NCBI GenBank assembly: GCA_004298015.1
Contig: SCSE01000090.1
Location: forward strand, 1-64,000
Source of the DNA: Rhodanobacter sp.
GTDB lineage: Bacteria; Pseudomonadota; Gammaproteobacteria; Xanthomonadales; Rhodanobacteraceae
Direction of reading: 5' to 3'
Length of the DNA stretch: 64,000 nucleotides
How positions within the stretch are numbered: position 1 is the first letter of the stretch; every line of letters begins with the position of its first letter. Of this stretch, positions 7,913 through 29,626 are shown in pieces. A program made the position numbers and the translations under genes. Under the pieces are notes generated by a model, which was given only the letters and a program-made list of their open reading frames with translations, did not search any database and had not been told where the DNA came from.

Positions 7913-8704
7913 TCACGCCTCAGCCGGCAGCGGCCAGCCAAACCGTTCGAGCAGCGCGGCATAGGCGGCGTCGAGCGGCGCCTCGACCATCAGCGGCGTC
8001 CCGCTCAGCGGGTGGGTGACGCGCAGTCGCCAGGCATGCAGCAACATCCGATGGCAGTGGAAATGTTGCTTGTAGAGTCGGTTGTGGTCGCCGCGCCCGT
8101 GCTGGCAGTCGCCGATTACCGGGTGGTGGATATGCGCCAGATGCTTGCGGATCTGCCGGAACCGGCCGGTCTCCGGTTCGACCAGAAGCAGCGCATAACG
8201 CTGCTGGGGATAGCGACCGAGTTCGATCGGCACCTCGATCGTGGCCAGCCGCCGGAAACCGGTGCGCGCCTCGCGCCGCGGACCGGTCTCGCGCGAGCCG
8301 GGCAGCGGGTAGTCGATCAGGCCCTCGGTCGGGTCGGGCCAGCCGCGGACCACCGCCAGATACTGCTTGTGCACGTCGCGGCCCATGAACTGTTCGCCCA
8401 GGGCGGCAGCGATCTCCTTGCTGCGGGCGATCAGCAGCACGCCACTGGTGGCGCGATCGAGTCGGTGCGCCAGATACACGCTGCCGCCGATCTGCCCGCG
8501 CAGCTTGTCGATCAGGAATTCCTCCGCGTTGCCGACCATTTTCGAGCGGTGCACGGCCAGGCCCGCCGGCTTGTCTACCGAGATCAGCGCGTCGTCCTGG
8601 TAGAGAATTTGTAGCAGCGCACCCTGTGCGCGATGCTCTCGCTCGACGTTAGGCGCAAGAGCATCGCGCACAGGGTGCGCTCCTACAGGATGGCCATGGT
8701 TCAT
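7913..8704 (-). CDS. truC: tRNA pseudouridine(65) synthase TruC
   Basis: 263 residues. RluA/TruC family: catalytic HRLDR at residues 80-84 with the nucleophilic Asp at 83. The N-terminal ILYQDD and [12 protein letters not shown] blocks align with E. coli TruC, which begins at the equivalent of residue 32 here. It isomerises uridine 65 of certain tRNAs. The start ATG at 8704 overlaps the ubiB stop (ATGA), so it is coupled to ubiB. Residues ~6-31 are not family sequence: they are encoded by a REP palindrome (8611-8686). No ATG, GTG or TTG lies in frame between the REP and the conserved domain, so translation must pass through at least part of it. Confidence 0.88.
8611..8686. repeat. REP palindrome pair (BIME-like) inside the truC 5' coding end
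   Basis: Two 29-base arms (8611-8639 and 8658-8686) are inverted copies with one mismatch, separated by 18 bases. Each arm has a GTAG at its outer end and its own small hairpin (GCGCA/TGCGC), the hallmarks of REP elements mobilised by RAYT (TnpA-REP) transposases. A related single copy is at 54055-54079. Here the element lies just after the ubiB stop and within the first ~31 codons of truC. Confidence 0.85.
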
Positions 8705-10350
8705 CGCGAACGCGGCCAACCGATGGCGAAGGACAGCAGTCCGGCAGCAGCGACGAGCGCCGCGGGCCAGAAACCGTATTCTGGCGCGAGTGAAGTGAGC
8801 AGCGCAGCGCCGATCAGCAGTGCACCACCTAGCAGGCCGCTGGCGAGCAGGCGTTGCTGCCGTCGTGCCTCGTCGTGCATCAGCCCAAGCAGCTTCGGAT
8901 CGCTGCGTTCGCGCTGTTCGCCGCGAGCAACCTGGCGCAAGGCGTCTCGTACCAGTTCGGGAAACTGCGGCGCACTGTGCAGCCATTCGGGAACCCGTTT
9001 ACGCATCTCGCGCAAGGTGCGGCGTGGACTGTAGCGCTCGCGCAGGATGCGCTTCAGTACCGGGTGCGCAACCGCCCAGATGTCGATATCGGGATCGAGC
9101 ATGCGGCCGACCCCCTCGATGTTCAGCAGGGTCTTTTGCAGCAGGATCAGCTGCGGCTGCAGGGTCAGCTCGAAGCGGCGTGCGGTCTGGAACAGCTTGA
9201 CCACCAGTTCGGCCAGCGAAATCTGCGACAGCGGTCGGGTGAAGTACGGCTCGCAGACGGTGCGCACGGCAGCCTCGAGTTCATCCAGTCGTACCTCGGC
9301 GGGCATCCAGCCGGCGGCGACGTGCAGCTGCGCAATACGCGCATAGTCGCGCTCGAACAGCGCGATGAAGTTTTGCGCCAGCCAATACTGGTCGGCCTCC
9401 GGCAGCGAGCCCATGATGCCGAAATCCAGCGCGATGAAGCGCGGCTCGGTGAGCCGCGTCGGATCGACCCAGATGTTGCCCGGGTGGGCATCGGCGTGGA
9501 AGAAGTTGTCGCGAAACACCTGCTCGTAGAACACTCGCACGCCCTTCGCGGCAAGCGCCTTGCGATCGATACCGGCCGCGTCGATCGCGGCAATATCGTC
9601 CGAACTCACCCCATGCACGCGCTCCAGTGTCAGCACCCGGGCCGAGGTCAGCTCCCAGTGTATGGCGGGCACGTAAAGATCCACGCCGCTGTCAAAATTG
9701 CGCTTGAGCAGGCTGGCGCTGGCGCCTTCGCGTTGCAGGTCGAGTTCGTTCTCCAGCATCTTCTCGACTTCGGCCACCACGTCAAGTGGGCGAATCTTGT
9801 CCGCGTGCGGATGCCAGCGCTGCGCGAGCTCACCGAGTGAACGCAGCAGCTTCACGTCGCGGGCAATCCTGGCGTCGATGCCGGGACGCAACACCTTGAC
9901 CACCACCTCGCGACCGTCGTGCAGGGTGGCGGCATGCACCTGGGCAATCGACGCCGATGCCAGCGGTGTCGTGTCGAAGTACGCGTAGAGTTGATCGATG
10001 GAAGCCTTGAGTTCGACTTCGACAATCGCGCGTGCCTCGGATCCGGCGAACGGCGCGACCTGATCCTGCAGCAGCGACAGTTCATCGGCGATGTCCGCCG
10101 GGACCAGGTCGCGCCGGGTCGAGAGCACCTGGCCGGCCTTGACGAAGATCGGCCCCAGCTCGGTCAGCGCCAACCGCAGGCGCTCGCCGCGCGGCAACGT
10201 GGCGATGTCGGCACGGGGGCGTGACAATAACGGACGCAACAGCTTCAGCGGGCGGAACAGGTGGGCCGCATCGACCAGTTCATCGAGCTGGTAGGCCAGC
10301 AGCACGGAGGCTACCCGCAGCAGCCTCGGCACGACGCGCAACGGCGTCAT
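8701..10350 (-). CDS. ubiB: Ubiquinone biosynthesis atypical kinase UbiB
   Basis: 549 residues, the usual UbiB/ADCK length. The KxGQ motif characteristic of the family is at residues 71-74 (KAGQ), and a kinase-like core with a DAHPGN metal loop follows. The C-terminus has two transmembrane helices. UbiB is an ATPase/kinase-like protein needed for aerobic coenzyme Q synthesis, probably by extracting lipid precursors from the membrane. The gene overlaps ubiJ upstream and truC downstream by four bases each. Confidence 0.96.
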
Positions 10351-27769: not shown

Positions 27770-29626
27770 TTAGTGGCTGCCCTTGCGCGCCTTGACGAAG
27801 ATCGCTTCCACCGCCTGCTGAGTCAGCGGGTGGTAGCCGGGCTTCGCTTGCGCATAGACGCGCTCGGCGTAGGCCAGGCCCTGCGGCGTCCTGGCAAAGG
27901 CCTTGTACAGCGGCAGGGTGAGGTAGAGTCGGCCGATCCGGATCATGTGTGCGGCGGCGGCCGGCCATACCGAGGTGTCACCACCGGCAATGGCGTGGCT
28001 GTACCAGCGCATGCCGATCTCCGCATTCGGCGTGCCGGTGAGGTGCCAGGTGGCGTCCAACTCGCCGAGCTTGCCTGACGGGGTGACGTCGGGAAGGCGA
28101 TCGAGGAAGTACATCCACTCCTGGGTGTTCCAGCCCTTCGCCTCGATCTCGTCGGCGCCCAGGGTGCCGGCAAGGAACGCCTTGCGCTCGCGATCGATCG
28201 TGTCGAAGCGGGGCGAGTCGGGCAGCGTGGCATCCTTCGGGATGCCGGTGCCGTAGACCCACGCTTTGACTTCGGCCCAGCGCATTTTGCCGGGATATCT
28301 GTCGATCAATTGCGGCTTCAGGTAGGCGAGCATCTGCTCGGTGGTAATGCTCTGGAATGCGAAATGGTTGAAATAGCCTTTCAGGTAGGCGTCGAATGCC
28401 CGGCGGCCGAAGCGCTGCTCCAGCGTGCGCATGAACCATGAGCCTTTGTCGTAGGCGACATCGGACAGCGCATCATCGGCACCGACACCGCGTGGATCGG
28501 GGGCCAGTTTCTGCGCGTTGGCGGGCATGTCGGCGATGTCTTTCTGCAGCGCACGAGCCGACAGCAGGGCTTCCTCGTCAGCCAGTGCCTTGCCGTAGAG
28601 CGCCTCGGTGATGCGACCCTGTACGTAGGTGGTGACCCCTTCGTTCAACCAGATGTCACGCCAGCTGGCAGCGGTAACCAGATTGCCCGCCCACGAATGT
28701 GCCAACTCATGGGCTACCAGCGAGACCAGGCTCTTGTCACCCACCAGTACGGTCGGCGTGGCGAAGGTCATGTCGGGGTTTTCCATGCCCCCGTAGGGAA
28801 ATGACGGCGGCAATACCAGGATGTCGTAGCGACCCCAGCGGTAGGGGCCATACAGCTTTTCCGCCGTGGCGAGCATTTTCTCGGTGTCTTCGAACTCGTG
28901 CGTCGCCTTGTCGACCACCGATGGCTCGGCATAGACCGCCGAGCGCGGCCCGGTCTCCTTCACCGCGATGCCGCCGGCCGCGATCGCCAGCAGGTAGGCG
29001 GGAATCGGATGCGGCTGGTCGAACGAGAAGTTGCCATCCAGTGGATGCCTGGCGTCGTTGATCGCGCTCATCAGTACGCGGATATCCTTCGGCGCACTGA
29101 TGTGGGCGTCATAGGTGAAGCGCACCGCCGGCGAATCCTGCAGCGGCACCCAGGAGCGGGCATGGATCGACTCCGATTGCGAGAACATGAAGGGCAGCTT
29201 GCCGTCCGCGGTCTGCGCCGGACCAAGCCACTGCAGCCCGGTGGCAGCGGGCGAGGTGGCGTAGACGATCCGCACCCGCTGCGGATGGTTCGGCGCGGTG
29301 ACGGTCAGCTTGCTGCCCAACGCCTTGTCAGGTGGTGAAAGCACGTAGTTGAGTGGCGAGGATTTGCCGTTGCCGTGGAGGGCTTCGATGCTCGCGATCT
29401 TCAGATCCCGCGTGTCCAGCACCAGCGACGGCGCGTCCGGATTTTTCCAATCCAGCGTCAAGGTGGCGACGCCTTCCAGCTGCTTGCGTGGAAAGTCGAT
29501 CGTCAGGTCGAGATCGAGATGCGTTATCCGTACCTGGTCGGGCTGCGCATAGGAATCCGGATCGGCCGCGAGGGCCGCCAGCGGCAGCATCAATGTGCCG
29601 AGTGCGAGGAGGGAAAGCAGGCGCAT
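27770..29626 (-). CDS. Secreted M1 aminopeptidase (leukotriene-A4-hydrolase type)
   Basis: 618 residues from the ATG at 29626, with GGAG seven bases upstream. A signal peptide (residues 1-21) is present. The exopeptidase motif GGMEN and the zinc motif HELAH at 306-310 are intact, with the third ligand Glu in WLNEG about 20 residues later. The C-terminal helical domain matches the LTA4-hydrolase group. It should remove N-terminal residues from peptides in the periplasm. The downstream hydrolase is on the same strand. Confidence 0.94.
   Translation of the reverse strand: MRLLSLLALGTLMLPLAALAADPDSYAQPDQVRITHLDLDLTIDFPRKQLEGVATLTLDWKNPDAPSLVLDTRDLKIASIEALHGNGKSSPLNYVLSPPDKALGSKLTVTAPNHPQRVRIVYATSPAATGLQWLGPAQTADGKLPFMFSQSESIHARSWVPLQDSPAVRFTYDAHISAPKDIRVLMSAINDARHPLDGNFSFDQPHPIPAYLLAIAAGGIAVKETGPRSAVYAEPSVVDKATHEFEDTEKMLATAEKLYGPYRWGRYDILVLPPSFPYGGMENPDMTFATPTVLVGDKSLVSLVAHELAHSWAGNLVTAASWRDIWLNEGVTTYVQGRITEALYGKALADEEALLSARALQKDIADMPANAQKLAPDPRGVGADDALSDVAYDKGSWFMRTLEQRFGRRAFDAYLKGYFNHFAFQSITTEQMLAYLKPQLIDRYPGKMRWAEVKAWVYGTGIPKDATLPDSPRFDTIDRERKAFLAGTLGADEIEAKGWNTQEWMYFLDRLPDVTPSGKLGELDATWHLTGTPNAEIGMRWYSHAIAGGDTSVWPAAAAHMIRIGRLYLTLPLYKAFARTPQGLAYAERVYAQAKPGYHPLTQQAVEAIFVKARKGSH

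Follow-up and report, generated by a model that had tools for sequence, protein, structure and literature searches.

A GTAG-type REP doublet in frame at the 5' end of a truC-like gene of Rhodanobacter, with probable loss of the native start codon

We found that a GTAG-type REP doublet lies in frame at the 5' end of a truC-like gene in Rhodanobacter sp. (contig SCSE01000090.1, positions 1 to 64,000; this whole stretch of 64,000 nucleotides is called the window). From the comparison with related sequences, the native truC start appears to have been lost, with translation most likely beginning at an ATG that overlaps the stop codon of the upstream cistron, ubiB. A mobile repeat would in that case have taken over the start of a conserved gene, of which relatives show the state without a REP at this place. 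The features of the region are as follows, in positions of the window.

8701 to 10350, minus strand: ubiB, the upstream cistron (frame and profile match)
7913 to 8704, minus strand: truC-like gene, an RluA-family pseudouridine synthase of 263 aa counted from ATG 8704 (frame and profiles)
8702 to 8704, minus strand: ATG overlapping the ubiB stop as ATGA, the most likely truC start (ubiB stop TGA at 8703-8701)
8609 to 8704, minus strand: N-terminal extension, residues 1-32 (open frame; predicted disordered at 1-27)
8655 to 8687, minus strand: left REP unit (inverted-repeat arm and family consensus)
8669 to 8671, minus strand: GTG (V12) of the left unit, in frame with truC and preceded by GGAG at 8 nt, a rival start (start-site scan)
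8643 to 8654, no strand: 12-nt loop of the doublet (inverted-repeat search)
8610 to 8642, minus strand: right REP unit, the downstream half of the doublet in the truC sense (inverted-repeat arm)
8615 to 8617, minus strand: CTG (L30) where the putatively lost ATG stood, a rival start made by the outer mismatch of the REP

The doublet is an inverted repeat whose 33-nt arms (8610-8642 and 8655-8687) are 94% complementary, with two mismatches, and GTAG forms both of its outer ends. An earlier note on this DNA had described a 29-base inverted repeat with one mismatch and the same outer ends, and this description stands within the longer arms: one mismatch falls within the first 29-30 bases from the outer ends, and the second adjoins the loop. 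Positions 8664-8687 of the left unit are the exact family consensus TGTAGGAGCGCACCCTGTGCGCGA. In the right unit, the plus strand carries C at 8615 in place of the family's G, and the exact REP pattern with this C occurs at 2 places in the genome. The RNA fold of 8560-8704 on the minus strand reaches -86.2 kcal/mol (z = -9.0), with 0 of 200 shuffles as stable. The CTAC end of the REP lies 2 nt before the Ile codon of the ILYQDD block, and the REP encodes about residues 6-32 of the truC frame; the earlier figure of about 31 REP-derived first residues is right for that stretch but not for residues 1-5 (MNHGH), which are flank.

Next, we examined the family to which the doublet belongs. The motif TGTAGGAGCGCACCNNGTGCGCGA with up to two mismatches occurs in 136 copies (66 + 70) in the 3.93-Mb genome, whereas its reversed control gave 0 matches in the same genome under the same mismatch limit, supporting the identification of the palindrome pair as a REP. 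A census of stretches of the same genome gave 66 REP clusters and 122 monomers, the latter being the script's count, against the 136 of the genome-wide pattern search. Five Y1_Tnp matches were found in the genome, and the one at C90:28286-28597 (Pfam 30.5 bits, cut-off 23) is a RAYT, matching NF047646 with 120.9 bits at a cut-off of 80 (L004 1432-1821, minus strand, in G000:C90). The RAYT gene is flanked on both sides by the REP of truC (matches at C90:28198 and 28811-28986), with five REPs in tandem on one side, and the RAYT search and REP count that had been proposed as checks were both positive.

We then compared the ubiB-truC junction among relatives. The truC neighbourhoods comprised 129 loci (79, plus 30 kept from 149 further genomes searched, plus 20 further stretches), of which 125 entered the junction comparison, the distant L111-L114, with Bacteroidota and Verrucomicrobia among them, being excluded. 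Dropping 33 duplicates, 7 loci without a ubiB match and 2 with N left 83 distinct junctions, the window's included. A truC ATG stands 3-5 codons before the Ile in 76 of the 83 (3 codons in 63, 4 in 2 and 5 in 11), the sister of the window included, confirming the expectation that truC of relatives begins at the ILYQDD block, from an ATG of its own. Judged by eye, the exceptions are the window, L045 (Dyella sp. OK004), L071 and L105, whose truC starts as GTG-Leu-Glu, L058 and L162, which start with TTG, and L164, with an ATG 22 codons upstream.

Inverted repeats (arms of at least 12 nt, at most 2 mismatches) were found in 49/83 gaps when the last 6 nt of ubiB are counted in, and by eye they are of several kinds. 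A palindrome-like end could be placed by pattern in 39/83 junctions, some of these not being true palindromes. In the window and L045, 2 nt separate this end from the Ile codon; in the other 37 the distance is 17-122 nt. Six relatives carry the window's REP, with distances of 18, 20, 20, 21, 21 and 33 nt. A tree built from UbiB plus TruC pairs the window with L036 (support 0.988), its sister, whose junction lacks a REP and reads ATG-ATC-GAG-ATT, and pairs L045 with L083 (support 0.842), where truC has an ATG of its own. Since the REP is seen directly on the core in the window and in L045, each with a sister that has its own ATG, this state was reached at least twice, separately in the second strain. 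OK004 reads GTG-ATT-GAG (Val-Ile-Glu) at the ubiB stop, which may be a kept start with the REP behind it or mere resemblance, and therefore the event seen twice is the placing of the REP on the core, not the loss of the start. The flank before the window's REP resembles by eye that of L044, which has a different palindrome there, making an exchange of palindromes at one site possible. In another junction, L098, the ubiB stop codon TAG is supplied by the GTAG of the REP.

The truC case is not a one-off, because the REP peptide frame is also found in hrpA, polA, an icmF-like gene and ybeY. In the census of the window's genome, doublets in the frame VGAHPVRD occur in hrpA and polA and at the N-terminus of a gene that we take to be ybeY, and four REP units lie in an icmF-like frame. 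The best models for the gene pieces were HrpA (509.5 bits), DNA polymerase I (537.9) and IcmF (591.5), scores that lie below the whole-protein cut-offs, only pieces having been given. The second half of the REP is read as RAQGALL in hrpA, polA, ybeY and truC of this genome alike. The icmF-like frame (L017 1501-1682) also contains, beyond its four REP units, a VIPAKAGIQ stretch that resembles a CGTC-type repeat. Elsewhere, a membrane-protein-like frame (L187) is open through two separate REP clusters (1674-1728 and 2703-2726) and is coding-like by codon usage on both sides of the clusters.

Thirty genus loci, own genome included, were examined for each of hrpA, polA and ybeY. In hrpA (loci L229-L258) the REP peptide is present in 10/30, with exact REP seeds in 9 of those 10; the doublet lies at L180 1612-1689, and most of the remaining loci show a short loop, for example LDEIAARQGRSKDMQQGS. 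In polA (loci L199-L228) it is present in 8/30, or 9 with a degenerate copy, with exact seeds in 4, and the doublet (L026 1501-1575) stands between the 5'-exonuclease and 3'-exonuclease parts. In ybeY (L259-L288) the window's REP lies between the start region and the VHVGYAV domain in 6/30 (L189 1646-1720), following a GTG at the stop of the upstream gene and preceding the domain. Between REP and domain of ybeY, no ATG, GTG or TTG is found in the window's genome, the sister and G016; in the other three of the six the first codon of the domain is GTG, and hence those loci prove no read-through. Of these inserts, the sister (G023) has those of hrpA and ybeY (L230, L260) but not that of truC. In other species, a few hrpA genes and, by eye, several ybeY genes carry a second REP family in frame. 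Inside hrpA, polA and the icmF-like frame, the REP has to be read through. These counts, together with frames open through REP clusters in 245/396 cases of the own-genome census, speak against the earlier view, as applied to this genus, that frame-retaining insertion of such repeats is uncommon, and because of the census figure an open frame through a REP is by itself weak evidence.

Regarding the start codon, the last codons of ubiB are CGT-TCG-CGA-TGA, and truC opens within them, as ATGA (8704-8701). The truC frame runs from 8704 to 7913, stop included, with no earlier stop, so the retained frame and the ATG overlapping the ubiB stop are as the earlier note had reported. It had also held that no usual start codon remains in frame between the REP and the domain; this is correct for that interval, where no ATG, GTG or TTG occurs and the first one comes 19 codons after the REP, inside the domain, but a usual start, the GTG of V12, exists inside the REP itself. 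A usual start codon downstream of the REP was accordingly rejected. That truC starts at ATG 8704 is the most likely reading, with GTG 8671 and CTG 8617 as rivals.

The last sense codon of ubiB is CGA in the window and CGC in 44/83 junctions, where ubiB ends CGCTGA, as it does in the sister; from the junction comparison, ATG 8704 arose by a base change silent in ubiB. An ATGA junction occurs in 4/83 (window, L043, L085, L096), and only that of the window is in frame with truC, the four frames having been worked out by hand from gap lengths. With the gap cut to 2 nt, 5 of 21 relatives have an in-frame ATG within 45 codons and 14 have a usual start of any kind, so that an in-frame start after spacer loss is not rare. 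Retention of the frame or of an ATG was rejected as strong evidence on account of these shortened gaps and of the open frames in the census. No Shine-Dalgarno was found upstream of ATG 8704; its anti-SD energy is -3.6 kcal/mol, that of GTG V12 and of CTG L30 is -6.2 kcal/mol each, and the median for the native truC ATGs of relatives is -2.1 kcal/mol (n = 76). The mean unpaired probability over -15..+3 is 0.41 before the ATG and 0.056 before the GTG and the CTG. We favour the ATG on the strength of ybeY, where REP-coded stretches stand in frame at an equivalent place; this argument draws on three ybeY loci, not six, which slightly lowers our confidence in this explanation.

Among the alternatives, the REP could bring its own start, in the form of GGAG, 8 nt and GTG (V12) in the left unit, in frame with truC. 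The energy of this arrangement speaks for it, and the REP's GTG is in frame both in OK004 and in the window genome's ybeY, whereas the GTG codon has an unpaired probability of 0.0 in the fold, the ybeY of the sister has the same REP frame with no GTG there, and in hrpA and polA the REP frame is read through from far upstream; we consider this start unlikely. Alternatively, translation could begin at the CTG of 8617-8615, giving fMet-Leu-Gln-ILYQDD, the length of the ancestral Met-Leu/Ile-Glu-ILYQDD, with the REP as an untranslated leader in which the outer mismatch had recreated a near-cognate start. This CTG sits at position 1 of the TruC model, is made by the base whose exact pattern is confined to two genomic places, and has AGGG 4 nt upstream with the energy given above. 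However, CTG is a weak start codon, the site is inside the very stable hairpin with the low unpaired probability noted above, and OK004, with the same anatomy, has CTC at this position, so that both a start here and its restoration by the mismatch seem to us unlikely.

We also examined the protein. The best model is NCBIfam NF008321 (TruC), which matches residues 31-258 from model position 2, placing position 1 at residue 30, and since its 248.3 bits lie below the equivalog cut-off of 328, TruC-like, RluA family is the safe name. PF00849 (PseudoU_synth_2) scores 99.4 bits (cut-off 26.8), and H80, R81, D83, T86, S87 and G88 of HRLDxxTSG, which we take to be the motif of this domain, are invariant in 33 sequences. 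The 231-residue core is intact, with a dN/dS of 0.12 to the sister. Against five other relatives, the window shows a dN of 0.084-0.099 and the sister one of 0.076-0.094, the window's being slightly higher in 4 of the 5, and departures at 95%-conserved positions number 3 in the window, 1 in the sister, 1 in L045, 3 in L083, 0 in L044, 1 in L042 and 0 in L037. The predicted structure (mean pLDDT 82.9, pTM 0.80) is confident from about residue 31, with the first strand at 33-36, and residues 1-27 have a pLDDT under 50, so the tail 1-27 is predicted to be disordered. Behind the tail the enzyme is otherwise normal, and its core is constrained. No full-length truC match was found in 4/45 genus genomes (G010, G022, G036, G037, G036 being only 86% complete), indicating that truC is dispensable. 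That truC is an untranslated, decaying gene, or that misassembly at a repeat explains the missing spacer, is unlikely: these absences and the slightly faster change of the window's truC than the sister's would fit decay, and a draft genome of 90 contigs would fit misassembly, but the core is intact and constrained, and OK004 has the same anatomy while its nearest relative L083 has a normal ATG.

Overall, we regard the following account, taken as a whole, as moderately probable. A GTAG REP doublet of the RAYT-associated family would have come to lie directly on the truC core, by either of two routes: the REP may have stood in the ubiB-truC gap, as in relatives (e.g., L037 and L038), with the spacer from REP to Ile lost later, or the insertion of the REP may itself have removed the spacer. 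The native ATG-(Leu/Ile)-(Glu/Asp) would have been lost with the spacer, in an order of events that we infer. Termination at the ubiB stop would now most likely be followed by reinitiation of translation at the overlapping ATG, and the REP would be read as a disordered, presumably harmless, N-terminal tail before a normal, constrained enzyme. Directly supported within this account are the REP and its family, the RAYT, the absence of the native start (from comparison), the open truC frame and the constraint on the core. A wider reading, which we put forward as unlikely, is that REP doublets are portable N-terminal modules, one frame of which gives a harmless linker and possibly its own start signal, either GGAG-8 nt-GTG or a CTG through one base change; if true, a gene could lose its native start and still be expressed. 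The series of truC, ybeY, hrpA, polA and the icmF-like gene stands in one genome, with relatives that do and do not have the insert, which makes Rhodanobacter well suited to studying the translation of REP hairpins and their effects on proteins.

Several known systems resemble the present one. The REPINs of the Pseudomonas fluorescens group, as described in parts of PMC3390384, likewise consist of opposed REP pairs, with a RAYT flanked by the same REP, but they are described there from non-coding regions, unlike the in-frame doublet of truC. Rickettsia palindromic elements (RPE), whose in-frame cases are reviewed in PMC10969869, are also small palindromes in frame in unrelated proteins, and proteins with an N-terminal RPE-1 are said to be expressed; in contrast to the REP of truC, they are about 150 nt long, have other sequences and occur in other bacteria (sections of PMC10969869 and PMC3733652). 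The closest parallel is the account of intragenic GTAG and CGTC REPs in PMC3733652, where, as here, GTAG-ended dimers of 20-30 amino acids are in frame, at N-termini too, and RAYT genes are flanked by REPs. Its sections on these elements place GTAG REPs inside genes including those for DNA polymerase I, helicases and tRNA pseudouridine synthase A and B; they name these two synthases and not TruC, and its main text does not contain the word Rhodanobacter. Many N-terminal cases are judged extragenic there, on the ground that translation may start downstream (PMC3733652). The truC case differs from these and answers the objection, because no ATG, GTG or TTG remains between its REP and the domain. 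Intragenic REPs are thus already published, and the truC case is rarer in having apparently lost its native start codon.
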